A DNA stretch of 38,527 nt from a virus: the IMG/VR virus record IMGVR_UViG_3300030329_004691, positions 1-38,527 of that record. One strand, written 5' to 3'. Under the pieces are notes generated by a model. That model saw only the letters and a list, made by a program, of their open reading frames with translations, made no database searches and had not been told where the DNA came from. Within the stretch, counting starts at the first letter, position 1, and every line of letters begins with the position of its first letter. Of this stretch, positions 5,052 to 37,300 are shown piece after piece. The position numbers and the translations under genes were made by a program.

Positions 5052-5486
5052 TTATTGGTTCGCGTTCTGGTTCGCGTCCTGCTCGAGAAATCCACCGAGA
5101 GCGTTGGTCATGGCAGGATCCTGGCGAATCTCATCGAGCAGCTGGGAATCACTGAGCCTTCCGAGGTTCACGTTGACCAGTGGCTGCTGCCGCTCGGACC
5201 AGGACTCGGGGCTCAAGTTCTTGAGGGCGAAGATCTGGGCTTGGACGGAGCCCTTTTCTGAGGCGCTGAGGAGCTGAGAACTCAGCGCCCCAACAGTCTT
5301 TGCGCGTCCGCGCGTTATTGCTTCCTGAATCTCAGGATGGTTCTGTTTCTTCTCGCTGAGTGTCGTGGCGGCAATGCCGAGGATCGCAGCGATCTGTTCT
5401 TGGGTGAGCCCGAGCTTTGCGTGGTGCTCGATTCGGTTTATGACCGATTTATTGATCTTGAATTCAGGCTGAGGCATCGCATCCAT
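5052..5486 (-). CDS. terS: Small terminase subunit-like HTH protein
   Basis: This 144-residue protein has an N-terminal helix-turn-helix (GLTQEQIAAILGIAATTLSE, about residues 25-45). A helical segment with RGRAKTVGALSSQLLSASEKG and SPESWSERQQP follows, a pattern seen in phage small terminase or DNA-packaging proteins that recognise the packaging site and form rings. It is upstream of GNAT and terL, as expected. The last residues read DANQNANQ and are encoded by two copies of the 9-bp word GGTTCGCGT (plus strand) that also surrounds attP. Function is assigned from position, size and fold pattern, so a different DNA-binding role cannot be excluded. Confidence 0.7.
   Translation of the reverse strand: MDAMPQPEFKINKSVINRIEHHAKLGLTQEQIAAILGIAATTLSEKKQNHPEIQEAITRGRAKTVGALSSQLLSASEKGSVQAQIFALKNLSPESWSERQQPLVNVNLGRLSDSQLLDEIRQDPAMTNALGGFLEQDANQNANQ
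5057..5077 (+). repeat. GGTTCGCGT doublet inside the 3' end of terS
   Basis: Two exact copies of GGTTCGCGT lie at 5057-5065 and 5069-5077, 12 bases apart. The same word occurs as closely spaced copies (10-12 base steps) on both sides of the attachment region at 14111-14303, and I did not see it elsewhere. It falls inside coding sequence, so it could be a protein-binding site, a recombination scar or simply the Asn-Ala-Asn-Gln codon pattern. Confidence 0.6.
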
Positions 5487-11372: not shown

Positions 11373-12743
11373 ATGAAAACCAAATCAAATTTTATTAAGA
11401 AATGGGCTAAAGCTGGCGGGAACCAACGCGGCGAAAATTTTCAATTGAAGCCGGTTGATAAAAGAATTCATACCGTCAAAGACATACCTAATCTCCAAGC
11501 CGACCAGGTCAAAGTTATCGCGATCGTTGGCGGTCATAATGGTCAGAGAAAAACCCTCAGCACCGTTGCCGAGCTCGAGCAGCAGGAGCAGCCTTATATC
11601 TGGCTTCAGCAGCAGATTGAAAAGTTTGAAGCTAATCGAACTGCACCAGCATCTAAACGTGCAGCAGCTCCGATCGATGCCTTCAGTCTCCCACTTTCTA
11701 ATCTCATCCGACGTTTCAAAACTGATCACGTCAGCAAACTGAGATCAGCGCGGGATTATGAATACGCGCTCGGTCTTTGGGATGCTGAGATCGGTCATCT
11801 TCCGGTTGACCAGGTTAAAGCAACTCATATTGAGAAGTTCAAAAATGATCTGCTCAATCGCGCTCCTTCCGTCGGCACCTCCGGAAACAAAAAGCTGACC
11901 AATAAGAGTGTCAGAAACTATCTCTCAATTTTAAGTTCAGCTTTTAACTTCGGTCAAAAACTTGGCGTCGAGCTGGTGAGGCCTGGAAACAATCCGGTCA
12001 AGCTGATTGATTGGCCTGAAATCAAAGGCGAGCATGATAATAAAAGAACCGAGGTTCTGCTTCGCGGATCCGATGAGCTTACTTCACTGGTCGAGCAGCT
12101 GAACCTTTCAGAATCACGCGACCTGAAAGATTTCGTTTTGTTCTGCTTAATCACCGGCGTTCGTCAGTCGGAAGCATACGGACTGACCTGGGAAAACGTG
12201 GACCTGGAACATGGCTATGTTCACCTGAATCAAGCACTTCGCAGAAACGTCGTCGAAGGCGTTGACGAAGATGGGAATTTCATCTACGCGAAGAATGAAA
12301 ACGGTGGCAAGCGCGTGATCACCAAAGGCCTCAAAAATAATTCCGACAAAAGGGTTATCCACCTGGATCAGTTCCCTTCAGTCAAAAAGCTTTTAGTGAG
12401 CCGCAAAGCAGCAGCTGCGGAACGTCAGATTGCCGGTGGCGAAGCTGAAGATCGCGTGTTCCCCCAGGATATTAAAAAAGCCTGGAATAAGGTTCTGAAA
12501 CGCGCAGGCCTCCGGAAGGATGGTGCTGGAAACAAAACCGACGATCTTGTTTTCCATACCCTCCGCCACTCGGCAGCGACCTGGCAAGTTCAGGATGGGA
12601 TCCCCTTGTTTCAGGTTTCCCATTTTCTTGGACACAAGAATCTTCAATCAGTTTCCCGATACGCTCACTTCGATCCTTCCCAGGCTGAAGCGGGTGCAAG
12701 GACTGCGGAAGCTGGAGTGACCGCCGCCTTCGGCGCGATCTGA
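11373..12743 (+). CDS. int: Tyrosine site-specific integrase
   Basis: This 456-residue recombinase integrates phage DNA into the host chromosome. The catalytic set is complete: R264 in ITGVRQSEAYGL, a lysine in the NNSDKRVIHL strand (about K326), H405 and R408 in FHTLRHSAATW, H431 in FLGHKNLQSVSRYAHF, and the nucleophile Y440. A SAM-like core-binding domain lies at about 100-215, preceded by an N-terminal arm-binding region. AAGGGA precedes the ATG. It is read from a consensus promoter and ends at a strong terminator, so it is a single-gene unit. The likely attP, with repeated arm-like words, lies 1.4 kb downstream, beyond four other genes. Confidence 0.97.
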   Translation: MKTKSNFIKKWAKAGGNQRGENFQLKPVDKRIHTVKDIPNLQADQVKVIAIVGGHNGQRKTLSTVAELEQQEQPYIWLQQQIEKFEANRTAPASKRAAAPIDAFSLPLSNLIRRFKTDHVSKLRSARDYEYALGLWDAEIGHLPVDQVKATHIEKFKNDLLNRAPSVGTSGNKKLTNKSVRNYLSILSSAFNFGQKLGVELVRPGNNPVKLIDWPEIKGEHDNKRTEVLLRGSDELTSLVEQLNLSESRDLKDFVLFCLITGVRQSEAYGLTWENVDLEHGYVHLNQALRRNVVEGVDEDGNFIYAKNENGGKRVITKGLKNNSDKRVIHLDQFPSVKKLLVSRKAAAAERQIAGGEAEDRVFPQDIKKAWNKVLKRAGLRKDGAGNKTDDLVFHTLRHSAATWQVQDGIPLFQVSHFLGHKNLQSVSRYAHFDPSQAEAGARTAEAGVTAAFGAI

Positions 12744-13355: not shown

Positions 13356-13373
13356 AAGGACGTGGATTTAAAA

Positions 13374-13712
13374 ATGGAAATCGGCAAACGGATCAAGAAG
13401 ATCCGACAAAATAAAAGCATGAAGCAAGAAGAATTCGGGGCCTTAATTGGATCGAACCGATCCGTTATCAGTCGCCTCGAATCGGGTCGGCAGCAGATCG
13501 ACCAGGAGATCTTAATGAAATTCTGGACGACTCTGAAGGTCTCGCCGCATTGGTTGATCACCGGAGAGGATCCTGGTGGAGTGGCTGAGGTTTCGAAATT
13601 AAAATCCGACCTTAAAGAGACACAACAAAATTTAGTAGAGATGAGGTCGCATCGCGATTCACTTGCTGAAATAATTCAACTTTTGAAGGATGCTGCTGGG
13701 ATGAAAAAATGA
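13374..13712 (+). CDS. XRE-family transcriptional repressor (CI/Cro-like)
   Basis: This 112-residue regulator begins MEIGKRIKKIRQNKSM. Its helix-turn-helix (MKQEEFGALIGSNRSVISRL, then ESGRQQIDQEILMKF) spans about residues 15-50, followed by SPHWLITGE, typical of XRE domains. The C-terminus is a heptad-like helix (KLKSDLKETQQNLVEMRSH) instead of an S24 autoprotease, so RecA-driven self-cleavage is not expected. It is probably a dimeric regulator of the divergent promoter region at 11.3 kb. ATG 13374 is preferred over GTG 13362, because the AAAGGA lies only one base before the GTG. Confidence 0.85.
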   Translation: MEIGKRIKKIRQNKSMKQEEFGALIGSNRSVISRLESGRQQIDQEILMKFWTTLKVSPHWLITGEDPGGVAEVSKLKSDLKETQQNLVEMRSHRDSLAEIIQLLKDAAGMKK

Positions 13713-14086: not shown

Positions 14087-14174
14087 AAGAAACCAGAGGT
14101 TGCTTGAAATGGGTTCGCGTTTGGGTTCGCGTTTGGCCTTGGGTTCGCGTTGGTTCGCGTTTTTTAAAAAGCTA

Positions 14175-14199
14175 AACCGTTGCAAACACTGGGGTTGTG
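14175..14199 (+). repeat. Direct repeat, copy 1, beside tRNA-like core
   Basis: This 25-base sequence recurs at 14241-14265 with two mismatches; the shared invariant part is aaacactggggttgtg. The two copies are 66 bases apart and bracket the tRNA-like fragment. Confidence 0.9.
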
Positions 14200-14225
14200 G
14201 TCGGAGCGACTGGATTCGAACCTGC
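14198..14225 (-). other. tRNA 3'-end-like fragment (T arm, acceptor, CCA)
   Basis: Read on the minus strand this has GCAGG, loop TTCGAAT, CCAGT (T arm with one A-A mismatch), acceptor strand CGCTCCG, discriminator A and CCA. The rest of a tRNA (anticodon and D arms) is not recognisable upstream, so it is a fragment and not a functional tRNA. Integrating phages carry such 3' ends to restore the host tRNA gene. The amino acid identity cannot be decided. Confidence 0.75.
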
Positions 14226-14240
14226 CGCCCATAATCTGCG

Positions 14241-14265
14241 AACCTTTGAAAACACTGGGGTTGTG
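14241..14265 (+). repeat. Direct repeat, copy 2, beside tRNA-like core
   Basis: This is the partner of 14175-14199. It also contributes GGGGTTG to the stem of the terminator-like hairpin at 14257-14282. Confidence 0.9.
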
Positions 14266-14282
14266 CAATGCAACCCCCTTTT
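14257..14282 (+). terminator. Possible terminator of the rightward block
   Basis: GGGGTTG, a 7-base loop and CAACCCC make a perfect 7-bp stem followed by CTTTT on the plus strand. It lies at the meeting point of the two convergent transcription directions. The T run is short, so strength is uncertain. Confidence 0.5.
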
Positions 14283-14304
14283 GGGTTCGCGTTGGGTTCG
14301 CGTT

Positions 14305-14402: not shown

Positions 14403-14600
14403 TCATAGTTTCAGATGCCTGGGTAAGTTTTCAATAATTGCTTTCTGAGCTTCCTCAGTCAAGTTCGAAAGTGCATTCTTAGAATGCTGTTTCGCCTGGT
14501 CGGCAGTCAGGGAATTTCCATCATCCTGGACCGCGTCAAAAAAAGCTTTTGCGCCCCAGGTGACCAGTTCCGTAATCAATGTTATTTGTAAAGGCGTCAT
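14403..14600 (-). CDS. Small helical protein after the endolysin
   Basis: This 65-residue protein begins MTPLQITLITELVTWGAKAF. It has two predicted helices, the second charged (SLTADQAKQHSKNALSNL). It starts with ATGA overlap on the endolysin stop, which fixes the start at 14600. No strong membrane segment is seen, although the N-terminal helix is hydrophobic. It may assist lysis or be a virion accessory; the family is not recognised. Confidence 0.7.
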   Translation of the reverse strand: MTPLQITLITELVTWGAKAFFDAVQDDGNSLTADQAKQHSKNALSNLTEEAQKAIIENLPRHLKL

Positions 14601-14986
14601 GTGTAGCTCCATGAATTGGGCCGAGGATACGGCGCGGTTAAATCATCCAGGTGGATGAAGCGTTTATTTTTCGGCCCATGCAGCTTGAAACCAATCCCGG
14701 TGATCCCATGCGCCTGGGCGATCTTGATCAGCTCCAAAGCTTCCGCTCCAAAGATCTCAATATCGACCGCGTGGCCTGTCGTATGCGGTCCTGTCCTTCC
14801 TGTTGAAGAAACTTTTTCATTCCACTCAGGAGCTCGGTAACCAGAGCTCGGGAATAGAGGCCTCCCGAAGTCGTCTCGGATCAGCTGCAGCCTTTCCAAG
14901 AAGCTTTGATCCATGTCGCATATCCCGGTCCCGCGGCATTTCAGTTCATCGAACGTGAAGTTTTTAGTCAGGTATTTATTCGCCAT
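14597..14986 (-). CDS. M15-type peptidoglycan peptidase (endolysin)
   Basis: This 129-residue enzyme begins MANKYLTKNFTFDELKC, the normal beginning of phage M15 endolysins. Motifs SSGYRAPEWN (R51), GPHTTGHAVDI (H68, D75) and IHLDD (H112) give the zinc ligands and active site of this D,D/L,D-carboxypeptidase group, which cuts peptide cross-links in the cell wall. An upstream in-frame ATG at 15004 is possible, but the family start pattern favours 14986. No signal peptide or membrane segment is seen, so release needs the holin-type proteins encoded just upstream. Function is secure; the exact start is less so. Confidence 0.9.
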   Translation of the reverse strand: MANKYLTKNFTFDELKCRGTGICDMDQSFLERLQLIRDDFGRPLFPSSGYRAPEWNEKVSSTGRTGPHTTGHAVDIEIFGAEALELIKIAQAHGITGIGFKLHGPKNKRFIHLDDLTAPYPRPNSWSYT

Positions 14987-15412: not shown

Positions 15413-15774
15413 CGCATCCGCTCAAGTTCGCGTCCAATATTTTCCAGTTCAGACTTTTGTTCCACTAAAGAAGTGTTTGTTTTTTCAATCAACGCAATCA
15501 AACGCCCTTCGAGCTCACGTCGATCCTGCCGTGCCTGACCATTGGTTTTCCAGATGAACCATGAAAGGAAAATCAAACCTACTCCAGCAATCCCCTGGTC
15601 GATGAGAACCTCAAAGATCTGCTCGGTCGGATCCTTGTCCTGCCGTTCCGGAACCCTTGAATACTGACGTTCTTCATAACGGTATTGCCTGTCATTATGT
15701 TCCCGGGCGATCAGTTGATCCGCAAAAACAGGTGCAGCCCAAAGCCAGATGATGATTAAAGCATTAATCCTCAT
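15409..15774 (-). CDS. BhlA/UviB-like membrane protein with signal peptide
   Basis: This 121-residue protein has an N-terminal signal sequence (MRINALIIIWLWAAPVFADQ, likely cleaved after VFA), a polar Arg/Glu/Gln-rich segment, a transmembrane helix (GIAGVGLIFLSWFIW, about 60-75) and a C-terminal heptad coil (RLIALIEKTNTSLVEQKSEL). The membrane plus coil part is like BhlA/UviB holin-type proteins; the signal peptide and polar insert are unusual for that family and would put the middle outside the membrane. An i-spanin-like role is an alternative. It begins with ATGA overlap on the stop of the preceding virion gene. Confidence 0.6.
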   Translation of the reverse strand: MRINALIIIWLWAAPVFADQLIAREHNDRQYRYEERQYSRVPERQDKDPTEQIFEVLIDQGIAGVGLIFLSWFIWKTNGQARQDRRELEGRLIALIEKTNTSLVEQKSELENIGRELERMR

Positions 15775-18206
15775 AAAGTTTGCGCTGATTGAAATGTAGT
15801 CTGTATCGCAGGAGCATCCATCTTTCTTTGGCGTGAAGGAGGACCCATCTTTTCCGCGTTTTCCATGTACATCTGCTGCATCTGATTGGTGTACCTCAGC
15901 GAGGCATTCATACGCGCCTGGAAGAACCGAGAAAGGGAATTCCGGACGACCGTATCCAGGTTCCGGTTCCTTGTCATGACGCGCTCCACAAGCATTTTCA
16001 TCTGGGCCTGGTAGAGTGCAGGATAAACCGCTTGCATGGCTTCGACGTGCTCGGGCTGCAGGGATCCCTGAGCGATCATCGGAAGCACCAGGTTTGGATT
16101 ATCGACGATCGATTTGTACCGGTTGAATTTCAGGATCTCGGAAAATCGTGGAACCTCTTCCTTCGGATTAAAGACGAGCTCCGATGGTGCCGTCGTTGAT
16201 GTTGGAAGTTTCGAGTGCAGGAAGCTGATACCGTTTGCCATCGTATTTGCGACCGATTGGTTCAGAGTCTGATCTCCTTCGACCTCCGGGAGCATCGCCA
16301 GGAATCTCGGGTAGAGTGCCTGGGGATTTCCATTCAAGTTATCGAGCTGGTTCCTGGTCTTGATGAATTCCTCAATGGTTTTCTCGGGGCTGTCTGGGAT
16401 TGGATTTTTCACTTTAACACCAGCAGCAGCTCCTCCTCGAAGGATCAAAGAGACTCCTGCATCCATTGCCTTCTGAGATTTATCTGCCAGGTTCAGCATC
16501 CCGCCGTAGTCAGAAATCCTGCGAAGGGTCCTGGCAAAAAGGAGCTCCCCATTGTCTCGAATATATTTCCGGGCAAGTGCAGTTCCTGCGAAAGTTGCAG
16601 CAGCTCCCAAGCCTCCGGTCAGAACCGAATCAGCTGCACCGAAAACGCCACCTCCCAGGCCAGCTCCAACAACATATGAAGTGAGTGGAAGACGTGCATT
16701 ATTTGCCTGCCGAGCAGCTGCTCCTTGAGCAAAAAAATGGAGATTTTTCAGAGTGGCGTAAACGTCTTTGGCTTCCAGGAAATTTGCATAGGTATCGGAT
16801 TTGATACCCTTCGTATTGGATAATCGATTCCCGATCGCAGCCAGGGCATTCTCAGATTCTTCTCGGATGATGTTTGCCATGGCTTCATAGTGGGCAAAAT
16901 TATCCGGGTTCTTTTTAAAGTTGGCGAGCTCGCGCTGGTAGAATCGTTTCAGTTCTTCTGAGTCTCGGAAATTAAGAGTCTTGCCTCTCATCCCTAGCTT
17001 CTGAGAAATTGCCTTTGCGATTGGATTCATGTTCTTCCAGGCAATATCTCGGAAGTCTTCAATGGCTTGTCTGGCATTTTTAATCCGCGCATTCTGTACG
17101 GCATCATCGACAAGGCCTGCACCCATGGCTCGAGGGTTATCCACAATTTCCCGAATCATCCTTTTGGCAATGGCATCCGGATCAAATTTGAGGTCGTCCA
17201 GGTATTGCCCAGACTTTGCCATTAAGGTCTCAACTTCGGTAATGATATCGTCAAGCCGCTTTCCATAATATGGAAGCAGATCGTCTTCGAGCTGCATCAG
17301 AAGTGCTTCAGGATCATCAAGGTTTTTGACAATCCCCTTCTTGTCCAGCATCGCGAGCTTGGCGCCAAATTCGTTTGCTCCCCGGGAATAATTCCCATGC
17401 CTGGTGATTTTATTCCACTCGGTTTTTTTAGGATCAAGGGTTCGATAATATGCGCGGTCCCTGGCAAACTTCAGCGCGGATCCGCCCTTGCTCAGAGCTG
17501 TCGCGATCCCGCCGACCAGGCCTCCAGCAACTGATCCGAAACCAGCACCGGCAATGATATGATCTGCGAATTCGGGACGTCTTTCCGGATCATCCAAGAT
17601 CTGAGAAGAAACTGCATAAGGAACCCCGACGACTGCGCCCTCGGCTGCACCTCCGACCGCCCCTTTGACGACCCGAGTATTGAGCGGAGACGCCAGAGTC
17701 CTTAAAGCTTTTTTGTTGGAAGCTGCTTTGGAAATGGAACCTACAAGTTTTTGAGCTCCCCGAGCTGCACCCCTGGCGACCAGGGAGGTCCCTCCAAAAG
17801 GAAAAATTAATCCGCCGAGTTCTCCAGCTGTCGTCGCAATTGGGTTGAGCTCCCGATGCATCCTAATCTCTTCATCTGTAAATCCGAGATTTTGAAGAGC
17901 CATATCTGAAAGACCAAAGGACATGGTCCTGAGAGCTCCCAGGCCTGCCGAAGTGAATGGAGAATCACTGACCGTAGCTTTGAGATCCTCAGTTTCAACC
18001 AGCTCAACCGGAGCATATCGATAGCCTGCTCGAAGTGCTGCATAGGCTTTGTCAGCAGGGAAATCGTAAAGGGTATCATCCTCCCCAACCAAGGTGACTT
18101 TATCCCCCTGGAGGAATGCATAGTTCCCGGATGCAATCAGATCTTCGACGCGTGAATCATCGACGTTGACCGCCGATTCGGTTTGATAATCGTAAAGTCT
18201 AGCCAC
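15771..18206 (-). CDS. Internal virion/ejection protein
   Basis: This 811-residue protein begins MARLYDYQTESAVNV. It contains several Gly/Ala-rich hydrophobic stretches (GAGFGSVAGGLVGGIATAL about 220-240 and GLGGGVFGAADSVLTGGLG about 510-530), alternating with long helical regions (YRTLDPKKTEWNKI, DDIITEVETLMAK). This composition is typical of podovirus internal proteins that are ejected and form a channel across the envelope. It follows two other large virion proteins and precedes the lysis cassette. Homology to a named family could not be verified. Confidence 0.65.
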   Translation of the reverse strand: MARLYDYQTESAVNVDDSRVEDLIASGNYAFLQGDKVTLVGEDDTLYDFPADKAYAALRAGYRYAPVELVETEDLKATVSDSPFTSAGLGALRTMSFGLSDMALQNLGFTDEEIRMHRELNPIATTAGELGGLIFPFGGTSLVARGAARGAQKLVGSISKAASNKKALRTLASPLNTRVVKGAVGGAAEGAVVGVPYAVSSQILDDPERRPEFADHIIAGAGFGSVAGGLVGGIATALSKGGSALKFARDRAYYRTLDPKKTEWNKITRHGNYSRGANEFGAKLAMLDKKGIVKNLDDPEALLMQLEDDLLPYYGKRLDDIITEVETLMAKSGQYLDDLKFDPDAIAKRMIREIVDNPRAMGAGLVDDAVQNARIKNARQAIEDFRDIAWKNMNPIAKAISQKLGMRGKTLNFRDSEELKRFYQRELANFKKNPDNFAHYEAMANIIREESENALAAIGNRLSNTKGIKSDTYANFLEAKDVYATLKNLHFFAQGAAARQANNARLPLTSYVVGAGLGGGVFGAADSVLTGGLGAAATFAGTALARKYIRDNGELLFARTLRRISDYGGMLNLADKSQKAMDAGVSLILRGGAAAGVKVKNPIPDSPEKTIEEFIKTRNQLDNLNGNPQALYPRFLAMLPEVEGDQTLNQSVANTMANGISFLHSKLPTSTTAPSELVFNPKEEVPRFSEILKFNRYKSIVDNPNLVLPMIAQGSLQPEHVEAMQAVYPALYQAQMKMLVERVMTRNRNLDTVVRNSLSRFFQARMNASLRYTNQMQQMYMENAEKMGPPSRQRKMDAPAIQTTFQSAQTL

Positions 18207-20079
18207 CCGCGTTCCTCACTGATCCACCAAGATCTGAAGCTTTAGGAATCCTATTTGACCTCGGCATTCCTTTTGGAGGCATCCCTTCCTGAACAAATCC
18301 GTAATCTACTGGAGTCACCGGCACAAATTGGTTTGCTTGCTGGAACCCTTTCAGTCGTGATTCATAATCATTGGGAAGAACTTCCAGAGCTGTTTTTAAT
18401 TCTCCCAAACCAATAGTAAAAATATCTTCCTCCGGAATCACTCTGTTAATCATTGTTTTTTCCGTAGGCGTCAATGCAGCTCCTCCCTTCATTATGTCAT
18501 TCTTATATACACCCCAAAGAGATCCAACTATTGTTCTTAGTTTAATGTAATCCTTGCCTTGAGCTTTTCTTATACCAGCTGCACTTTGAGCAAGAAGATT
18601 TGCTGTACCAACTTCCTCAAAAATTTTAAGAGCTCTTTCACGTTGTTCTTCAATAGTTCGAACCCCCGCCATCATTTTTCTTCCTTCTTTGAGCGCATCC
18701 TTGATGCCCTGAGCATCCTTAATTGAGGTCACTCCCAAGCCTGGGACATACTTGTCTCCAAATTCTTTTTTAGACTCTTGAACAGCTTGGTACCGTTTAA
18801 ACATCAAAGTTTGTAATGCCAGAACCATCTGCTGATCCCCTCTTTCACGCGCTTCAATAATCCCACTTTTAATACCTTCCACTGTCGCGATCTGACTTTC
18901 GACAGCTGCTCGGTTCTTTAAGGATGCCAGCGCACTGTCGGAAGCATTCTGGGCCATCTGCAGCATCCTGCCGCGTTCCTGGATCAGATTCAGCTGCTGC
19001 CGTTCTGCAGACTTCTGTCGGAAATCCCGGTCGTCTTTAAATTTTGCCAGGTGATCATCGATGGTTTTGTTGATGATCTGGAGAGCGAAGTTTGGCGTCC
19101 CTGTCATCGATGCAGCACCAGCTCCGAGAGCAGCTGCAATGACCGCCCAAAACTTATTTGCGCCGGTTATCGCAGGACCTGGTTTTTCTTCAGCGATCGC
19201 GTTGATGCTGTCTTCGTATGTATCAATTTCCTTCTTTATGTCATTGGCGAGATTGACGTAGTTCTGTTTTTCAGTCTCGAAAAAATAAAAGGATCCCTCG
19301 GTAAATTCATCACCTTCATAAATATCCTGGAGCTCCATCAATTTATCGATGACGCCATCATAGGTTTCGAGTCCATAACCATAGGGATCCGAAATGCTGA
19401 CGATGTTTTTCCCTTCCAGGTATCCCTCGGTTTGCTTCATATCAACCGGCATGGAACCTGGTTCCTCGACCACTTCCTCCTCAACAATCTCGACGTCCTG
19501 CATGGGATCTGGTTCTGGCTTAGGATCCTTCAGACGTTCTTCTTCTTTTTTTTGCTCAGTTGTTTTGCTATCAAATACAACTTGTTCTAATTTGCCAGGT
19601 TCGTCTGGGCGAGGTGGAAGAGTCGATTTCTGAGCTACAGCAGTTAAATTGGAATCTTCTTCCGGGATTTCGACGGTCGTCTCTTCTTCCATAAGATCGG
19701 GGCCGAGCATTCTATTCAATCGATTAATCCCGATTGTCTCAGATCGTTCAAATCCACGATCCATAAATGTTTCTTTTCGCCCTATCTGTCCTGCTGCTTT
19801 GTCGTATTCTTCCTGGGTCGGTTGATCCAATGGCATAATGTCACCAAATTCCATAGCCCAATCAATGTACTGGTTCCCCTCAGCAACCGGAGCAGCTGTT
19901 TCAACCGGGGTTTCCTCAACAACTTGCATCGATGCCCGGAATTTTTCTGGAGGTCCAAATTCGAGCTGAAGCTCCGCGTGTCTTTGATCTCTTCTAGCAT
20001 CAAAAATTTTGCGATCTAAAAGCTCTTGATAGAAAAGCCGTCTTTCATTTTTTCCTTCTGGAAGACCAAATCTCATCAC
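18199..20079 (-). CDS. Large structural protein, probably internal virion
   Basis: This 626-residue protein begins MMRFGLPEGKNERRLFYQEL. The first half is acidic and low-complexity (PEEDSNLTAVAQ, EIVEEEVVEEPGS). A Gly/Ala segment KFWAVIAAALGAGAASM (about 308-324) is followed by a long helical coil region (DDHLAKFKDDRDFRQKSAE). It shares 8 bases with the next gene and 4 with the previous, so it is tightly coupled between them. Position and composition point to an internal or ejected protein; no family is recognised. Confidence 0.6.
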   Translation of the reverse strand: MMRFGLPEGKNERRLFYQELLDRKIFDARRDQRHAELQLEFGPPEKFRASMQVVEETPVETAAPVAEGNQYIDWAMEFGDIMPLDQPTQEEYDKAAGQIGRKETFMDRGFERSETIGINRLNRMLGPDLMEEETTVEIPEEDSNLTAVAQKSTLPPRPDEPGKLEQVVFDSKTTEQKKEEERLKDPKPEPDPMQDVEIVEEEVVEEPGSMPVDMKQTEGYLEGKNIVSISDPYGYGLETYDGVIDKLMELQDIYEGDEFTEGSFYFFETEKQNYVNLANDIKKEIDTYEDSINAIAEEKPGPAITGANKFWAVIAAALGAGAASMTGTPNFALQIINKTIDDHLAKFKDDRDFRQKSAERQQLNLIQERGRMLQMAQNASDSALASLKNRAAVESQIATVEGIKSGIIEARERGDQQMVLALQTLMFKRYQAVQESKKEFGDKYVPGLGVTSIKDAQGIKDALKEGRKMMAGVRTIEEQRERALKIFEEVGTANLLAQSAAGIRKAQGKDYIKLRTIVGSLWGVYKNDIMKGGAALTPTEKTMINRVIPEEDIFTIGLGELKTALEVLPNDYESRLKGFQQANQFVPVTPVDYGFVQEGMPPKGMPRSNRIPKASDLGGSVRNAGG

Positions 20080-22256
20080 GCCCTCCCTTCAAGCTGCTTC
20101 GTTCGTTTATGCAGATTCGCCTGAGCGGCCATGACTGCTGCAAGACCCTGGTTCATATCAAGCTGCTTTCCGCGAGGTCCATTTGAAACCATGGCATTCC
20201 CCATCGGCCCCCCTCGCTCGGCATCCTGGGCCATGATTCCTATCAGCAGCCCAGAGTCTCTACCGATCGCCTTTGGATCCTTATATTCATATTGGTATGC
20301 ATCAATCGCATCAAGGAACTGCTCGATCTCCCGATCTCCGGAGCTAATGTTTTGCTTCATCCGTTCGTCGGATCCCATTTTCGCGTATGCTGCTATACCA
20401 GTTGCAATCATGTTAAGAATGGCCCCCTGGCGATTCGTATCATTAGCAGATGCTTTCCATTCCCCGGTCAGATCTGCGATGTATCGTTTTGTCGCATCAT
20501 CCATCTCAGCCAGATCCCGGGTCAGCTCAAATCCCATCATCTTGAGATCAGATTCCATCTGAGCCATATCGATCTTAACTTCGAGACCATAGAACTCTTT
20601 TTTCCCACGGTAGGCTTCAATGGCAAAGACGTCGTCCATGCCCCGCGACTTGATCGCGAGCTCTGCGTTGATGGTCGCAATGGTGAGATTCTTCTGCATA
20701 TTTGCCAGCTCGGTTGCAACCTCGAGCTCACCGTTTTTGATGGCAACTTGTTTTTCAGCTTCCAAATTTGCGAGTCTAGTTTTGAGCTCGGTATCTGCTT
20801 CGGCCAGGACGGAGGTCAGCTTCATCTGGGCATTGCCAATCTTACGGACCTGGTCCAGATCTGCATTCTTGAAAGCTTCCTGACGTCTTGCTTCCAGATC
20901 AGCCAGGGCAAGCTTTGCCTCCCGGCCTCCATCGATCTCGATCAGCTGAATCATTTGCTGACGTGCAGCAGCTTCTTCCTGGGATCGCAGAGCAGCAGTG
21001 TCGCGGATAAGGATTTGCCCCTGCTCGGCCCATACATTCTGCAGCTGTCTTCGTTTCTCAGGAGCGGCTTCGGTCCCAGCAACCGCGCTGAGAAATGATT
21101 TCATCAGATTTTCCGATTCTGTCCTGGCCTGCTGCTGTGCAAAAGAATCCCGACGACCCATGATCGTATCATAGAGAACTTCGAACACCTTATCCGATTT
21201 GCCTCGGACCTTGTCGGTGAATTCCCGGTCATAAAGGACTTCGTCGGTATCCCGATCAAATCCGAATTCCCCAACCGTTGTCTGCGTTACATCGTCGGGG
21301 GTGTCGATCGTTGGAGCTTCAATTGCATCCGGTGCTGTAATATCGTCTCGGGTTACATCTGCAACCGTGTCAGTGACCTGGATAGCGTCCCTGGCAAACT
21401 GCTGGATTTCTGCTGGAGTCAATTCAAAGGCTTCAAACCGTTGCGCCTTTTCCCGGGCCATGTTCCAGAGGCCTTCAATGGTCCTGGATCCCAGACGTGC
21501 ATAGGTTCCAGTTATTGTCCCGCCATCTGCAACAAATTGCTGATAGGTTTTATTCAGGTTGATGTAATTGCCATTTTCATCTTTCAGCATCAGCTGATTG
21601 TAAAGATCCTGCCCTGCTTCGACGACCTGGTTCGCTGCATCTTTTTGAGCCAGTGCCATCTGCTTATCCCAGTGAGCTTTAATTTCATCATCAGACAAAT
21701 GCTTGAAGGTCCCTGCTTCAGATTTTTTGGATTCATAATCATCATCGATGGTGATGGCTCCCCAGTTTCCTGCGAGACTTGTCCTCTCGGCATCGATTTC
21801 AACATTGGCAGCATTGGCTTCCGCCTGAGTGTTATATTCCCGACCTAGTTTGTCCTTGTATTTTGGAGGAGGAGGCGGAGGAGGTTGGTTGTTGTTGTCA
21901 CCACTTCCCTGTTGCTCTAAAGATTTAAGATAATTTTGATGATGCCTTTCTATTTCAGACAGACCATCATCTGGCGGCGTGTCATGAGTGTCTCCTCCTA
22001 GCCGATCAGAATCTTTACTTTCGTCATAACCATTACCATTATCATCTTCTTCAAAACTCCGTAGTCCGGTCATGGGATCGATTTGGCCTGACGTATTCGG
22101 CAGGGAGGCGAGAAGCGATTCCTCCATCGTGTTCACCATGACCGGTTTGTGCATCTGACCGCCCATGGTCAAACCTTCATTTTTGGCTCGGTAGATGTTC
22201 AGGAGCTCCTGCAGCTCCTCCGGTTTCATATCTCGCAGGACTTCAAAATTATTCAT
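20076..22256 (-). CDS. Coiled-coil structural protein with S74-like C-terminal chaperone domain
   Basis: This 726-residue protein has an acidic, Asn-rich N-terminus with a run of seven prolines (about 125-131) and a long alpha-helical coil (about 360-600). From residue 629 its last 98 residues resemble the intramolecular chaperone (peptidase S74) domain: SDERMKQNI, then LDAIDAYQYEYKDP and LIGIMAQDAE. In known proteins that domain trimerises a fibre or spike and then cleaves itself. Here it is attached to a helical protein next to internal virion genes, not a beta-helical fibre. Whether it cleaves cannot be judged. Confidence 0.65.
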   Translation of the reverse strand: MNNFEVLRDMKPEELQELLNIYRAKNEGLTMGGQMHKPVMVNTMEESLLASLPNTSGQIDPMTGLRSFEEDDNGNGYDESKDSDRLGGDTHDTPPDDGLSEIERHHQNYLKSLEQQGSGDNNNQPPPPPPPKYKDKLGREYNTQAEANAANVEIDAERTSLAGNWGAITIDDDYESKKSEAGTFKHLSDDEIKAHWDKQMALAQKDAANQVVEAGQDLYNQLMLKDENGNYINLNKTYQQFVADGGTITGTYARLGSRTIEGLWNMAREKAQRFEAFELTPAEIQQFARDAIQVTDTVADVTRDDITAPDAIEAPTIDTPDDVTQTTVGEFGFDRDTDEVLYDREFTDKVRGKSDKVFEVLYDTIMGRRDSFAQQQARTESENLMKSFLSAVAGTEAAPEKRRQLQNVWAEQGQILIRDTAALRSQEEAAARQQMIQLIEIDGGREAKLALADLEARRQEAFKNADLDQVRKIGNAQMKLTSVLAEADTELKTRLANLEAEKQVAIKNGELEVATELANMQKNLTIATINAELAIKSRGMDDVFAIEAYRGKKEFYGLEVKIDMAQMESDLKMMGFELTRDLAEMDDATKRYIADLTGEWKASANDTNRQGAILNMIATGIAAYAKMGSDERMKQNISSGDREIEQFLDAIDAYQYEYKDPKAIGRDSGLLIGIMAQDAERGGPMGNAMVSNGPRGKQLDMNQGLAAVMAAQANLHKRTKQLEGRA

Positions 22257-25240
22257 ATCAATTTTTGCTGAGGAAGTTTCGCATAGGTATTCCGTAATCC
22301 TACTTCAAGCATCAGATTAGTGATTGAGTAAGCCTGAGAGGGATCTGAGGAAACCGTGTCCTGAAATCTAAACCGCACCGAGTCGCATTTTTGCCGGGCA
22401 AGGTGGATGTTGAACTGATATACCCCATCAGCTACTCGATTGGTTCCTGCTCCGTAATATTCGGACCCATACGGTGATTCATCTCCATATTCGTTCTGAC
22501 CGGTTGCAGTCCTAAAATTGAAGGTATGAAGTTCGTTAAAAAATTGCTCGAAGTTGTAAGCAATCTGCGTTTCCAGGATATGGTTTGATTTATAATCTCC
22601 CAGGACTAGAGCTCGACGAACACGCTGCAATCCCTGAATTTGTTGGGTTTTGATCCATGCCGTTGTGAGTTTTAGGACGACTGCCATATCGACGTCTTGA
22701 TACAGAGTGTTAGACTCCTCGTAGACTAATCCTCCGGAGGTTCTGAGATAGGCATATTTATCAGTTGCGCCCCAGATCACTGCACCCAGTGCAGAATGAT
22801 TGGTGAAGGTAGACCATTTCTTATAAAAAAAGTCATAAACCAGGCACGGTCCACTCTGAGTGGTGAACCTGACTTGGGAATAGTCCTGGACCATCACGGC
22901 AGAAGTGACAGTTTCAGAATTGTAAGCTTCTACCCCTGCACCGATGTAGACGGTTTCCAGTTTTCGGTCCAGGAGGTAGATTCCTTTCTGGCTCATGAAC
23001 ATCACTCCCAGAGGAGTGAGGAGGATACTGTCTGAACCAGTTGCCCCCACATCTCCAGTGACCAGTTGGGGTTCTGAAAAGCTATTCTGTAGCCCTGCAT
23101 CAGTGGGTCCAGTTCCTGTGATGTAGAAGATCCGTTGAGGTTCAAAAATGATCAGTTTCTCATCCATCTCAATCAGACCAGTGACCCTCTCAGCCTTGTT
23201 CATGATAATTTGGAAAACATCACTAAATTCGACAGGTTTCTTGGCTTGACGTTTTTTCGAGTAATACAGAATTTTTGGATTTTCGGAAGAGACTGCAAAC
23301 ATCCTGTTATTGAACACTCCCATCACTGAGGTAGCAGGTGGAGGAATATTGTCCACAATCCCTCCGTTGGTGTAGAGGGATTCCTTTGCTACGAGATTTG
23401 TATCATTGATTGCCCCTGCATCCGCAAAGCTTACAGAATCTGCGCTGGTGTTATTAGTAACAGAACCGATTTTGTAAAAAAGGGTTCCAGTGGTAACAGT
23501 TCTGTATACCTCGCACTCTACACCTGAATGATCAGTAAGTCTCAAAGAGGGAATAGTCAAAGTGACGGTACTCGATCCACCGGTTGGTGATCCACTGATT
23601 GCGACTGAGGGTGCCGATCGATGGATCTGGCCTCGACTGTCCGACCAGGTAAAAATAACTCGATATTGATAGGTTCCTGCTGCCAGCGATCCGCTGCTGT
23701 TATTTACGGAAGCACTGATATTTTCCGGGTAGAGATGAAATCCATGTTCTTCAATTGTTTGAGAGTCATAGACTGAAACAAACCCTCCAGCAATATGGAG
23801 ATTTTCCCCCAACTCTGTACCTTGAAAACTAGATGATTGGGTGAAATCAATCCCGCTTAGGGCTAATCCTTTTAACGAATAAATATCATTGTTTTTGCTA
23901 ACAAGGCGAGTTTTAACCTGGAGACCGGTTTTAAATATACCTGCACTTGCATCATCAATAACCCTTGGTAGCGTGGAGTCTGAAGGCAATCCTCCTGCCA
24001 GGGAAGTATGCAGTTTTGCCACAATCAAACCTGTGGTATCGATCAGAAAATAAGTGGTCTGGAGACTGCTTGCATGGACTCCGATGAAGTAGGTTTTTTC
24101 ATTGTAATAAAATCCTTTGGAGGCTAAACCTACAGATCTTTTCAAAACGGCAGAAGATCCCATGGAGGAAGCACTCACATCATAAGTTGCCTTCTTGACT
24201 AAGTGATCATAATCGTTGGTGGCATTGTGTTCGTAGATGATCACCACATCCCCTGTCGAGTCCCTCTGCATCGTCACTCTGGGAATTGCCGTTGCAGTTG
24301 CTTCCACCGTGTAGGTGGCAACCTGGGTCAGGTCCAATTTTAAACGAGTGACTTTCAGACCAGAGGAATCTGAGTTTTTGGAGTAGGCTACGTAAACTCC
24401 GTCATTCACGGCATCACGGTAGACAGTCAGGGAATCTTCAGGATCATTTGCGATTGTAGTGGGGGCTACATATCCACTTGCCGTTGATCCGACTGCCCCT
24501 GTTTGGGTGATATACCCGATCTGAACCTGAGAGGAGGAGTTTCGGTAACAGTAGATGGCAGCATTGTCCTCGTATTCCACTACATCGATTTGTTGCCCGG
24601 AGGTGGCAGCATTGGAACCGATCTGAGTTGCTGAACCCCAGGTGGTCGGGTCTGTCTGATCCAAAAGTACCAGATCCACATCATTATCAGAAGTTTCGAT
24701 GTAGAGGATTGCCAACCGTTGATCCAGTTCAAACACCTTCGGCAATTTCCCTGTCGCAGAGATCAGAGTATTGTTCTGCAGAATGGCTCCTGACACTGCA
24801 TCAATCACGGATGCCCTCACTCCCCCCTGAGTGTCCTCCCAGGCTAAACAAAAGAGTCCTCCCCCATACGCAATATCAGCACTACTCTGCTCATACTGAT
24901 TGCGGATAATGTCATCACTGGAAACGGTGACGGAAAGCGAACCCCCCTTGTTCACCCATTCCTGTCTGCCACTGATGTAGGAATAAAGATTTGAATTGGA
25001 AAAAAGCAGGAGTTCATCCTGGAATTTACTCAGGGCATCTCCTGCCGTGATTTTTGAGGTGCTGCCTGTGATGGACGGTAAGAGTTTCGAGTAGCCATTG
25101 CGTTTGGTGATCGTACTGCCAGAAGTGAAAACACCGTTCTCTAATTCAGTAAGGTTCGACTGCAGGACCATTTTCTGGTCTGTTTTGGTGTCGATTCCTC
25201 CACTCAGATCAACCGGAATGAATGCTTTTTCAAGTGGCAT
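22253..25240 (-). CDS. Tail nozzle/stabilisation protein (P22 gp10-like)
   Basis: This 995-residue beta-rich protein begins MPLEKAFIPVDLSGGIDT. The early segment NLTELENGVFTSGSTITKRN matches the opening of podovirus tail stabilisation or nozzle proteins. Repeated strand motifs through the middle and the block FNNRMFAVSSENPKILYYSK, RIFYITGTGPTD, VMFMSQKGIYLLDRK, LVYDFFYKKWSTF support a beta-propeller-like fold. It closes the short tail and anchors fibres. It overlaps the next gene as ATGA. Family placement is by pattern, not search. Confidence 0.75.
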   Translation of the reverse strand: MPLEKAFIPVDLSGGIDTKTDQKMVLQSNLTELENGVFTSGSTITKRNGYSKLLPSITGSTSKITAGDALSKFQDELLLFSNSNLYSYISGRQEWVNKGGSLSVTVSSDDIIRNQYEQSSADIAYGGGLFCLAWEDTQGGVRASVIDAVSGAILQNNTLISATGKLPKVFELDQRLAILYIETSDNDVDLVLLDQTDPTTWGSATQIGSNAATSGQQIDVVEYEDNAAIYCYRNSSSQVQIGYITQTGAVGSTASGYVAPTTIANDPEDSLTVYRDAVNDGVYVAYSKNSDSSGLKVTRLKLDLTQVATYTVEATATAIPRVTMQRDSTGDVVIIYEHNATNDYDHLVKKATYDVSASSMGSSAVLKRSVGLASKGFYYNEKTYFIGVHASSLQTTYFLIDTTGLIVAKLHTSLAGGLPSDSTLPRVIDDASAGIFKTGLQVKTRLVSKNNDIYSLKGLALSGIDFTQSSSFQGTELGENLHIAGGFVSVYDSQTIEEHGFHLYPENISASVNNSSGSLAAGTYQYRVIFTWSDSRGQIHRSAPSVAISGSPTGGSSTVTLTIPSLRLTDHSGVECEVYRTVTTGTLFYKIGSVTNNTSADSVSFADAGAINDTNLVAKESLYTNGGIVDNIPPPATSVMGVFNNRMFAVSSENPKILYYSKKRQAKKPVEFSDVFQIIMNKAERVTGLIEMDEKLIIFEPQRIFYITGTGPTDAGLQNSFSEPQLVTGDVGATGSDSILLTPLGVMFMSQKGIYLLDRKLETVYIGAGVEAYNSETVTSAVMVQDYSQVRFTTQSGPCLVYDFFYKKWSTFTNHSALGAVIWGATDKYAYLRTSGGLVYEESNTLYQDVDMAVVLKLTTAWIKTQQIQGLQRVRRALVLGDYKSNHILETQIAYNFEQFFNELHTFNFRTATGQNEYGDESPYGSEYYGAGTNRVADGVYQFNIHLARQKCDSVRFRFQDTVSSDPSQAYSITNLMLEVGLRNTYAKLPQQKLI

Positions 25241-34135: not shown

Positions 34136-34341
34136 ATTCGCCTCGATTCATAAAAGTTGCGGAGCTCCGAGTCGGAGAGATCCGGTTTCTGCTCATCCAT
34201 CATCTTCATGACAGGATCCATTTGTGCGGAGTTGTAGAAATCAATCTCCAGGTCGAGGCCTTTGAATCGGGCGACGCCCTTGTCGGAAAGATACAGAACC
34301 AGGTCTTTCACCTGGTCGGAATTTAATTTTTTATTTAGCAT
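34132..34341 (-). CDS. Small protein upstream of portal
   Basis: This 69-residue protein begins MLNKKLNSDQVKDLVLYLSD. It consists of a helix, then strands (GLDLEIDFYNSAQMDP) and a polar tail. It overlaps the polyvalent protein gene stop by 11 bases and the portal start as ATGA, so all three are coupled. An in-frame GTG at 34350 is an alternative start. It may act in head assembly or in packaging the polyvalent protein; no family is recognised. Confidence 0.7.
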   Translation of the reverse strand: MLNKKLNSDQVKDLVLYLSDKGVARFKGLDLEIDFYNSAQMDPVMKMMDEQKPDLSDSELRNFYESRRI

Positions 34342-37300
34342 AGGCTGCACGGCCCGCGGCGCGGGAGCTCAAGTTTTGTTCATATTCATCATCCTGGGCT
34401 GCTTTGGTTCCTGCATAGATCGGAGGCAGCGCGACGTAGTAAGGGAGACCATCCTTAGCTGCTTTTTTCAGCTTCGGCGTTAGGTTCCAGGTCCATTGTT
34501 GTTCATCACCGTATTCCGGAGTTGATCCCCGCTGATCCAAAAGCTCCCATCTTTTTGCTTCCAACTTTGCAAGCTCTTCGTCTTCCATTTTAATGATATC
34601 TTCCGGAGATCCAGTGATTCTGTTATGCGTAATGACTTGGTCACGAACAGGAAGCTTGAGCTCCTCCAGGTCAGCAATAGATTGTTTTTTTGCGTCGATT
34701 TTCTCTTCAATAAATCGAAGTTGTTTGTCGATTGCTAAATGAGCCTTATCCCGGATCACGCTCGTTTTATTCACGGTCCCGCCGTATTCATCTGCTAGAG
34801 CCCTGGCCTGGTTCAGCAGGAGCTTGTCATAGAATTTCTGATGCCCTTTGGTGGAGAGCTCGATCTGCCGTTTGTTGCCTGATTTGCGGACCCATCCGGG
34901 GCTTGTGGTGTAGAGCTGATGAAAAGTAACATCACCGACTTCTGTTTTATCTTTAAGAAGTGCAGCAGCTGCTTCCTTGCCGATGAACCCTTCCAGGTCC
35001 TCGGGCTCGACGTCCTCGATCCGGATTGGCTTAGTATCAAGGGTCCCCTTGCTGCTAATGTAGTCGCCGGTTTCCAGGCGTTTCATGCTGGGATAATAAA
35101 AGATCGATTTCGGATACACCTGGCTGTCGTACCGGCGGCTCTGCTGCTTTGGCGTCGTCCAGGCAATGGCATCATAATCGTTATCTGCCGCCCAGCGGAC
35201 CAGGCGTTTCATGCCTAATCCCGCCCAAGTATTGGTATCCATAACGAAGGGACCTTCAGCAAAGCCGCTTGCTTGCTGCTGTCTTGCCCTTAAAAGCTCA
35301 TCATGCACTTCAGCAAACTGTAGATTAATCCTGTCATATTCCTCAGCATTATCCGGATCAGAAGCTAATTCCATTAATTTTGTATCTAATTCATCTTTTT
35401 TCTTTTGAAGTTCATCGATTCGTTCTCGACTTTGGGGTTTAAACCCATGTTTCTGCCCTTTCTGGCCCCAATCACTCTGCAGCTCCTCGACGAAAAGAAC
35501 CCTCCTGCCGTCTTCATCGATGCGCTCATTGATGCGGATATGCATGATCACGTTGTCTTCCGGGTAGTGACCCTTTTCTCCTGGGAAGCGGGATTCACGG
35601 GATTTGGCTTCATATATTTGATTTCGAACACTCTGTAATTCTTTTTCAAGATCATCGTAATAAGCTACTTTTCTATTAGGATCATCAAACAGTTCCGAAT
35701 TAAGCCAATTATTAAATCCCTCATCAGTAAACTGAGTCCCAGATTCAGATGAATATTGTCTTTTGAGCTTGTTCAGCTCGTTATGCATCTGGTCTTTAAT
35801 CTGAATCTCTTTTTTTCTTAGGCTCATTATGTCTACTGGCGGATGGAACTGACTTTCCGGGACCATCAGCACCAGCTCCCGGTAGTTCTGACCGCCTGGG
35901 ATCCGGACCCTGGATTCATCTCCTCCCGCCCAGGTTGTCATGTACTCATCTGCTTTGGTCGTCTCATAACCTAGACCAGTTCCTTGATATTTCGTATCGC
36001 CATAGACCACTTCCTGGATTTGAATCTGGTTTGCCTGCATGAATTCCTGGAGCTCCTGCTTCGTTACGCGATCCTTGCCTTTACTCTGCAGCCATTCCTG
36101 AAGACCGGTCCACTCGAGCTCCTCCTTCGGGACGCCTCCGCCCCGGAGCTTGTTCAACCAAACCTTTGGTTTCAGAGATTCCTCCTTTGATCCGACAATC
36201 ACTTTCATGGCAGGAGACGTGAACCCGATATCGGACTGAGTCATTGCCAAGGCCTCCCTGGCGCGGCTCTCGTCGTACATCCGCCGCATGAGCTTGTCCT
36301 GCTTGCCCTGAGACATGAACGGAACCACTCCTTTTTCCTGAATCTGCCATGGTGCCTTGGGTCCCTGCTTGGAAAACCTGGCGTCTGCTTCGATGATGTT
36401 CTGAGTCTGGAGGGCTACGGCATCATCATATTCATCCCGGAGCAGCGCGTTCCGCATTGCGTTTTCCGGATCATAGGTCCCGGCGAGCTGCTCATAAACT
36501 TCGGTCGATTGCGGATCATAATGCATGAAAACGACGTCGGGCTCGCCCTGGTTCCAATCTCCAAAAACTTCCTTGTCCCAATCGGGAGGCGCAAATTCAT
36601 CATTCCAAACGGTTCGGGCTGACATTCTAAAACCAACCTTCGAATAAATATGCGGAAGCGCACTGTCAAAGGCATCCAGTTTCCTGCCGCCTTCCTGCAC
36701 GGCAAGCATCAGTGCTGAAATTGTTGTTCCTTTGTGAGGTCCGCCCTTTTTATTGAAGACTGAAACAATATCATCATCCTTAATTGCGAAGCCGGTCGTT
36801 CCATCCTTGGAAAGGAACATCCGCATCCCCTGGTATTCCTCCGGTTCATAAACATAAACCGCGGCACCATAGGTGCTGGCATTTTTTGATTCAATTATGG
36901 ATTCCTGAAAACGGAGGCCTGCTTCCGGGGTTTGTGGAAGCTCGTAGAAATCTGGAGTGGAATAACCTAGAGAATTCAGCCGCTTCTGATCCGCGGCTGA
37001 GAGATTGAACCGGGTAACCTTGCCGAGACCTTTTAGGCTTCGTCCAGGATTGCGCTCGCTTGTTCCGGTGAAAGGCCGGTTGACCTTGCTAGATCCATCT
37101 CGGCTTGCGACCACTGACCGGTTGACTTTGTCCCGGATTCCTTTGATGAACCTGGTTGCATCTGTTTCTCGGAACTGGGACTCGAATCCTCCAAGAGCTC
37201 GCTTAAAAGCGGGTTCGAACCCTCGGTAAGGTGGTAAATCCCCAATTTCTGCTTCTGACTGAAATGGGGTGATGCTGCTGAGTCGGTCTTCATAACGCGT

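Follow-up and report, generated by a model that had tools for sequence, protein, structure and literature searches.

Positions 14111-14303 of the window (the whole stretch of virus DNA analysed, an IMG/VR record of 38,527 nucleotides) very probably constitute the attP of a temperate phage: the integrase encoded at 11373-12743 would bind the arm words and the core, strands would be exchanged in the T-loop of a host tRNA-Pro gene, and the tRNA would be rebuilt. The type of site is known (lambda-type attP, T-loop class), and this is a well-supported further example of it. Its arm words, core and proposed exchange segment were located as follows:

14111..14120, + strand: arm-type word 1, GGGTTCGCGT, exact copy, predicted integrase arm site
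14123..14132, + strand: arm-type word 2, GGGTTCGCGT, exact copy, predicted integrase arm site
14141..14150, + strand: arm-type word 3, GGGTTCGCGT, exact copy, predicted integrase arm site
14151..14160, + strand: arm-type word 4, TGGTTCGCGT, near copy, 1 base off
14198..14222, - strand: attP core, 3' end of tRNA-Pro, GGTTCGAATCCAGTCGCTCCGACCA, exact match to 114 complete tRNA-Pro genes, with no other tRNA among the matches listed
14214..14220, - strand: T-loop TTCGAAT, inferred candidate strand-exchange (overlap) segment
14283..14292, + strand: arm-type word 5, GGGTTCGCGT, exact copy, predicted integrase arm site
14294..14303, + strand: arm-type word 6, GGGTTCGCGT, exact copy, predicted integrase arm site

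The word (T/G)GGTTCGCGT occurred four times to the left and twice to the right of a 25-base tRNA 3' end, with irregular spacing (12, 18, 10) on the four-word side. The first-pass annotation had described three exact copies and one near copy on the left and two exact copies on the right, all in one orientation, and their positions were confirmed, all on the + strand. The inner copy in the related phage L166 deviated likewise, as word 4 does in the window. The 10-mer GGTTCGCGTT was present in six copies within 194 bp, against a maximum of two copies of any 10-mer per 200 bp in simulated windows (first-order model with the window's own dinucleotide statistics; n = 200). Allowing up to one mismatch, the arm word matched 13 times in the whole window (1.95 expected). 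A second word cluster at 5057-5078 was rejected as part of the attP, being coding sequence: two arm-word copies (5057 and 5069) encode the conserved protein tail QDANQNANQ of an ORF on the - strand (5052-5486). The overlap looks coincidental, because relatives with other arm words retain the protein.

The core extended from tRNA position 52 through CCA (25 nt). It had been taken for a T arm, an acceptor strand and CCA over 28 bases; the tRNA 3' end down to CCA was real, but the T arm was incomplete. The T stem of the phage opposes a 5' strand GCAGG to CCAGT, with an A51/A63 mismatch, and host genes have GCTGG, so that exact identity to the host tRNA starts at G52 and covers 25 rather than 28 nt. 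ARAGORN called no tRNA at the core, as expected for a 3' fragment, and no tRNA gene in the whole window. Bacterial tRNA genes ending with the core, a search proposed earlier, were found by scanning one genome per species (84,980 species), in which at least 119 stretches matched the 25-mer. Complete tRNA genes with the exact core, called by ARAGORN in the genome-scan matches listed and in fetched viral loci, were all tRNA-Pro (114/114), with anticodons CGG (51), GGG (39), TGG (22) and AGG (2) among the 114 listed. The core therefore predicts tRNA-Pro, and neither anticodon nor host; the earlier claim that it suffices to predict the target class, a host tRNA gene, held good, and the class can be named. 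Hosts of core-bearing tRNA-Pro genes among the matches listed included Pseudomonas, Stutzerimonas, Halomonas, Desulfovibrio, Bdellovibrio relatives, several alphaproteobacteria, Verrucomicrobiota and others. The core also occurred in 12 viral-contig stretches, and in viral contigs from outside the family it reached further upstream, to the apparent anticodon loop of tRNA-Pro(GGG); tRNA-Pro is therefore a shared target.

One viral contig of 42,342 bp (L006 and L015) carried the same tRNA-Pro(GGG) 3' end at both of its ends, which look like attL and attR of an unrelated prophage that shares this target tRNA, and its sequence resembled the Halomonas tRNA-Pro in L019. The genome contigs L032 (192-399), L052, L094 and L112 had a tRNA-Pro 3' end lacking the 5' half, in L032 as an extra copy adjoining the intact gene; these 3' ends are probably junctions of other integrated elements. 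In L094 there is, in addition, a gene for a distant tyrosine recombinase (24%).

Two genes upstream of the attP bear on its interpretation:

11373..12743, + strand: tyrosine integrase, 456 aa (Pfam Phage_integrase, E 7e-23; phrog_1, E 9e-51)
13362..13712, + strand: Cro/C1-type HTH regulator, candidate lysogeny repressor (HTH_3, E 2e-11), between the integrase gene and attP, synteny kept in relatives

The integrase gene was 1.4 kb from the attP. Its catalytic domain comprised residues 234-434, and R264, H395, R398, H421 and Y430, the set expected of a tyrosine recombinase (R, H-x-x-R, H/W, Y), were invariant in six relatives; HP1 integrase was the nearest solved sequence. Residues 1-92 were modelled with a pLDDT of 88.8 as strands 23-27, 46-52 and 58-64 and a helix at 74-90, and are predicted to form the arm-binding domain, of which a three-stranded sheet plus helix is the expected arrangement. 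A fold search of the N-terminal domain against solved structures returned no informative match and no solved arm-binding domain, and the full-length integrase model (pLDDT 65.8) was too poor for use. In lambda, the N-terminal domain of the integrase sits on the arm sites, and its core-binding and catalytic domains on the core. The same two-domain binding logic is predicted for the window integrase: the N-terminal domain would bind the six directly repeated arm words, the core-binding and catalytic domains would bind the core around the T-loop, and DNA bending would bring arm words and core together. Lambda has a non-tRNA target, a 2+3 arm arrangement and known IHF, Xis and Fis sites, whereas the window has a predicted tRNA target and 4+2 arms.

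Searching with the integrase recovered two close phages (L172/L002, 87%; L171/L003, 84%), and searching with the capsid recovered more relatives, among them L166 (integrase 59%) and L167 and L169 (integrase 30-31% in alignment). The 4+2 arm layout was present in six capsid-sharing phages (the window, L171, L172, L166, L167 and L169), with gaps, counted from the four-word side, of 11-12, 17-19 and 10, then 132-156 over the core, then 11-12. Where readable, the attP-like region lay past the integrase and HTH genes and ahead of the endolysin gene. Arm positions relative to the T-loop, and arm words, both on the tRNA sense strand, were:

Window, L171 and L172: -86, -75, +57, +67, +85, +97; word ACGCGAACCCA in the window, GCAAACCCA in L171 and L172
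L166: -106, -94, -77, -67, +66, +77; word TGGGTTCATG
L167: -118, -107, -88, -78, +76, +88; word GTTTAGACAT, with variants
L169: -118, -107, -88, -78, +78, +90; word CTTGATACAT

There were three core types, namely tRNA-Pro (window, L171, L172), a GGCCCACCA-ending tRNA 3' end (L166, core GGTTCGAGTCCTACCTGGCCCACCA), and the 3' half of an initiator-type tRNA-Met, from the anticodon loop onward (tRNA-fMet; L167, L169). The fMet 25-mer matched 1 of 387 genomes in the phylum of a Verrucomicrobiales MAG, inside a real tRNA-Met gene, and with up to one mismatch none of the 43 tRNA-Pro-matching genomes. The GGCCCACCA-ending 25-mer matched none of 398 genomes in the phylum of Marinospirillum, and a 23-base version of that end none of 319 in the phylum of a Bacteriovoracales MAG. 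A constant layout in which both the arm words and the tRNA ends vary is predicted by an attP, but not by a chance tRNA relic. Integration of relatives elsewhere had been named as evidence against the attP reading; the relatives did carry other tRNA 3' ends, but within the same architecture, and the attP reading was therefore strengthened.

Arm words and integrase N-terminus changed together. Every arm copy differed between the window (GCGAACCC) and L171/L172 (GCAAACCC), with the same base change (GCG to GCA) in all six words and extra changes in some copies; over the core and roughly 40 adjoining bp, a single base differed. Integrase identity between the window and L171/L172 was distributed by residue as follows:

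Residues 1-80: 55-56%
Residues 81-105: 40-52%
Residues 106-230: 98-99%
Residues 231-330: 85-93%
Residues 331-456: 97%

Such a joint change of words and N-terminus would be expected if the N-terminal domain recognises the arms. The suggestion of the first-pass annotation that the words fit arm-type integrase sites was thus supported both by the five related phages (like spacing, other words, three tRNA cores) and by the arm words changing with the integrase N-terminus. These matched integrases, 97-99% identical in the core-binding and last catalytic blocks and sharing an identical core, with another N-terminus and other arm words, amount to a natural experiment on the arm-recognition code; relatives with a like arm layout and other tRNA ends offer the same for target choice.

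Exchange would occur in the T-loop region, most likely in TTCGAAT (14214-14220), against the identical T-loop of the host tRNA-Pro gene, as judged from the start of attP/attB identity, the GG/CC flanks and the precedent of Ms6. The Ms6 attP has a 26-bp core over the T-loop at the tRNA-Ala 3' end, not reaching the variable region; its TTCGAA T-loop is implicated in exchange, and an altered core retargets other tRNA genes (PMC1762012). With its T-loop core at a tRNA 3' end and its TTCGAA, Ms6 is the closest studied precedent, but its integrase is another one and its target is tRNA-Ala rather than tRNA-Pro (PMC1762012); retargeting in the window family, moreover, is natural variation within one phage family and includes other tRNA isotypes. 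Since everything from tRNA position 52 on, including CCA, would come from the phage, the tRNA-Pro gene would be rebuilt at the prophage junction on the integrase side. When six real tRNA-Pro genes were joined in silico to the phage core at the T-loop, attL contained an intact tRNA-Pro and attR no tRNA. The mark expected of a junction (attL/attR) is GATTATGGGCGGCAGGTTCGAATC joined to host DNA, or tRNA-Pro joined to the arm array. Prophage junctions carrying the core, also proposed as a check, were not encountered: the phage-side junction 24-mer had no exact match in the 84,980 species genomes, in which the host is possibly not represented, and in viral contigs it matched only the two close relatives, so that we infer integration rather than report it.

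It is very improbable that the words serve the neighbouring HTH repressor as operator or regulatory sites and that the tRNA fragment is an unrelated relic. The gene of this Cro/C1-type regulator is 400 bp from the arm words, and regulation can be a second role of an attP region; yet in six phages the words stand to either side of the tRNA end at conserved distances, and they change with the integrase N-terminus, the HTH protein being 87% identical to its L172 counterpart although all six words differ. The words are also unidirectional and non-palindromic, unlike typical Cro/C1 operators, which are palindromic. Replication iterons, or another origin element lying beside a tRNA fragment by chance, would likewise give short tandem direct repeats in a non-coding gap, but there is no adjoining replication initiator gene, the spacing is irregular, and a tRNA 3' end varying by phage lies within the array in every relative, which leaves this the least probable of the readings. 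An attP used for tRNA-dependent lysogeny, in which the host tRNA is destroyed and a phage tRNA replaces it, has precedents in some actinobacteriophages (PMC10865867) and is here extremely improbable: the core covers the whole 3' end, position 52 through CCA, and the in-silico attL is an intact tRNA-Pro. The window is devoid of tRNA genes, and tRNA-dependent lysogeny is therefore not indicated.

Around the core of the proposed attP, three further elements were recorded:

14175..14199, + strand: 25-bp direct repeat, copy 1, between the four-arm side and the core, containing CAACGGTTT on the - strand
14223..14265, - strand: phage side of the core, including the second 25-bp repeat copy (14241-14265), 1 base differing in the two closest relatives
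14257..14277, + strand: hairpin GGGGTTG...CAACCCC, then CCTTTT in the window, stem kept in L171/L172, loop changed

The 25-bp direct repeat pair (14175-14199 and 14241-14265) brackets the core, and each of the six related attP regions had a version of CAACGGTTT / CAACGGTT. Positions 14223-14265 were nearly invariant in the three close phages and may hold an accessory-factor site; just past CCA, the window and L171/L172 were unrelated. The hairpin (shuffle z of -2.5 for the fragment) is a possible terminator between core and arms. A perfect IHF consensus, AATCAATACTTTA, lay between the core and the four arms in L167 and L169; the window attP had none within 1 mismatch. No excisionase was recognised.

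The attP of the window aligned end to end with that of L166 only after L166 was reverse-complemented (score 158; shuffled maximum 45; collinear 41). The integrase gene, the HTH gene, an ORF at 14406-14642 and the endolysin gene were collinear between the two, and the tRNA fragment had the same orientation relative to the integrase gene in both. The arm array is therefore inverted in place between the window and L166, a solid observation for this one pair. The L166 arrangement was shared by L167 and L169, which suggests that the window lineage has the derived arrangement. In the alignment, the phage-side half-core of the window, CCTGCCGCCCATAA, on the opposite strand, faced the tRNA end of L166, CCTACCTGGCCCACCA, and could be the decayed trace of a former target, though this suggestion is a weak one. 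It is a speculative and rather unlikely proposition that the arm array is invertible around the core with function kept, so that a phage could acquire another tRNA 3' end at either flank of its core and retarget by flipping. The near self-complementarity of the T-loop core (GG-TTCGAA-TCC) would allow such a flip, provided that the overlap is 6 or 8 bp long and has TTCGAA at its centre; the 7-bp TTCGAAT would mismatch in the reverse register.

Parts of this organisation have counterparts in phages already described, namely cluster K, Omega and Gaia. In cluster K mycobacteriophages (CrimD, Anaya, Adephagia, Pixie), predicted 11-bp arm words flank a tRNA/tmRNA core, and the arm consensus shifts between close phages along with integrase N-terminal residues, a smaller version of the joint change reported here; the Pixie attP has direct repeats on both sides, and that of CrimD a terminator-like stem-loop between core and arms, which the hairpin at 14257-14277 resembles (PMC3203893). 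The window family differs from cluster K in its 4+2 words, in one direction and with tightly conserved spacing, and in an N-terminal domain at 55% identity, against near-complete identity there, with the core-binding domain nearly unchanged. In Omega and Gaia the attP runs in the opposite orientation to the remainder of the genome (PMC10865867); the inverted orientation is alike, but in the window it is the arm array that is turned round, with respect to the flanking genes as well as to the tRNA fragment.

Among GenBank phages and plasmids, integrase matches were all below 28% identity, and portal and capsid had none. A search of 353 genomes with the capsid protein gave no real relative; in the order of a marine alphaproteobacterium, in that of a Halobacteriovoraceae MAG and in a Verrucomicrobiota class, matches were partial and weak (E 5e-4 to 3e-6) or absent. 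tRNA-Pro is added as a predicted target of an uncultured phage family whose capsid and portal have no counterpart among GenBank phages.

The - strand at 15771-25240 encoded four large proteins of the virion region (811, 626, 726 and 995 aa); of the 811-, 626- and 995-aa proteins, which were scanned, only the first matched, weakly, phrog_342 (internal virion protein with endolysin domain). The two ends of the contig (1-2466 and 36098-38527) were related: the 1385-aa gene at 34331-38488 had a second copy, inside which the contig starts (79% identity over residues 1-797), and both copies mapped to one place in the relative G001. Two strain variants, joined where the ends of a circular genome of about 36.1 kb meet, are a likelier explanation than a real tandem duplication; the genomes of the relatives measured 35.7-36.6 kb.
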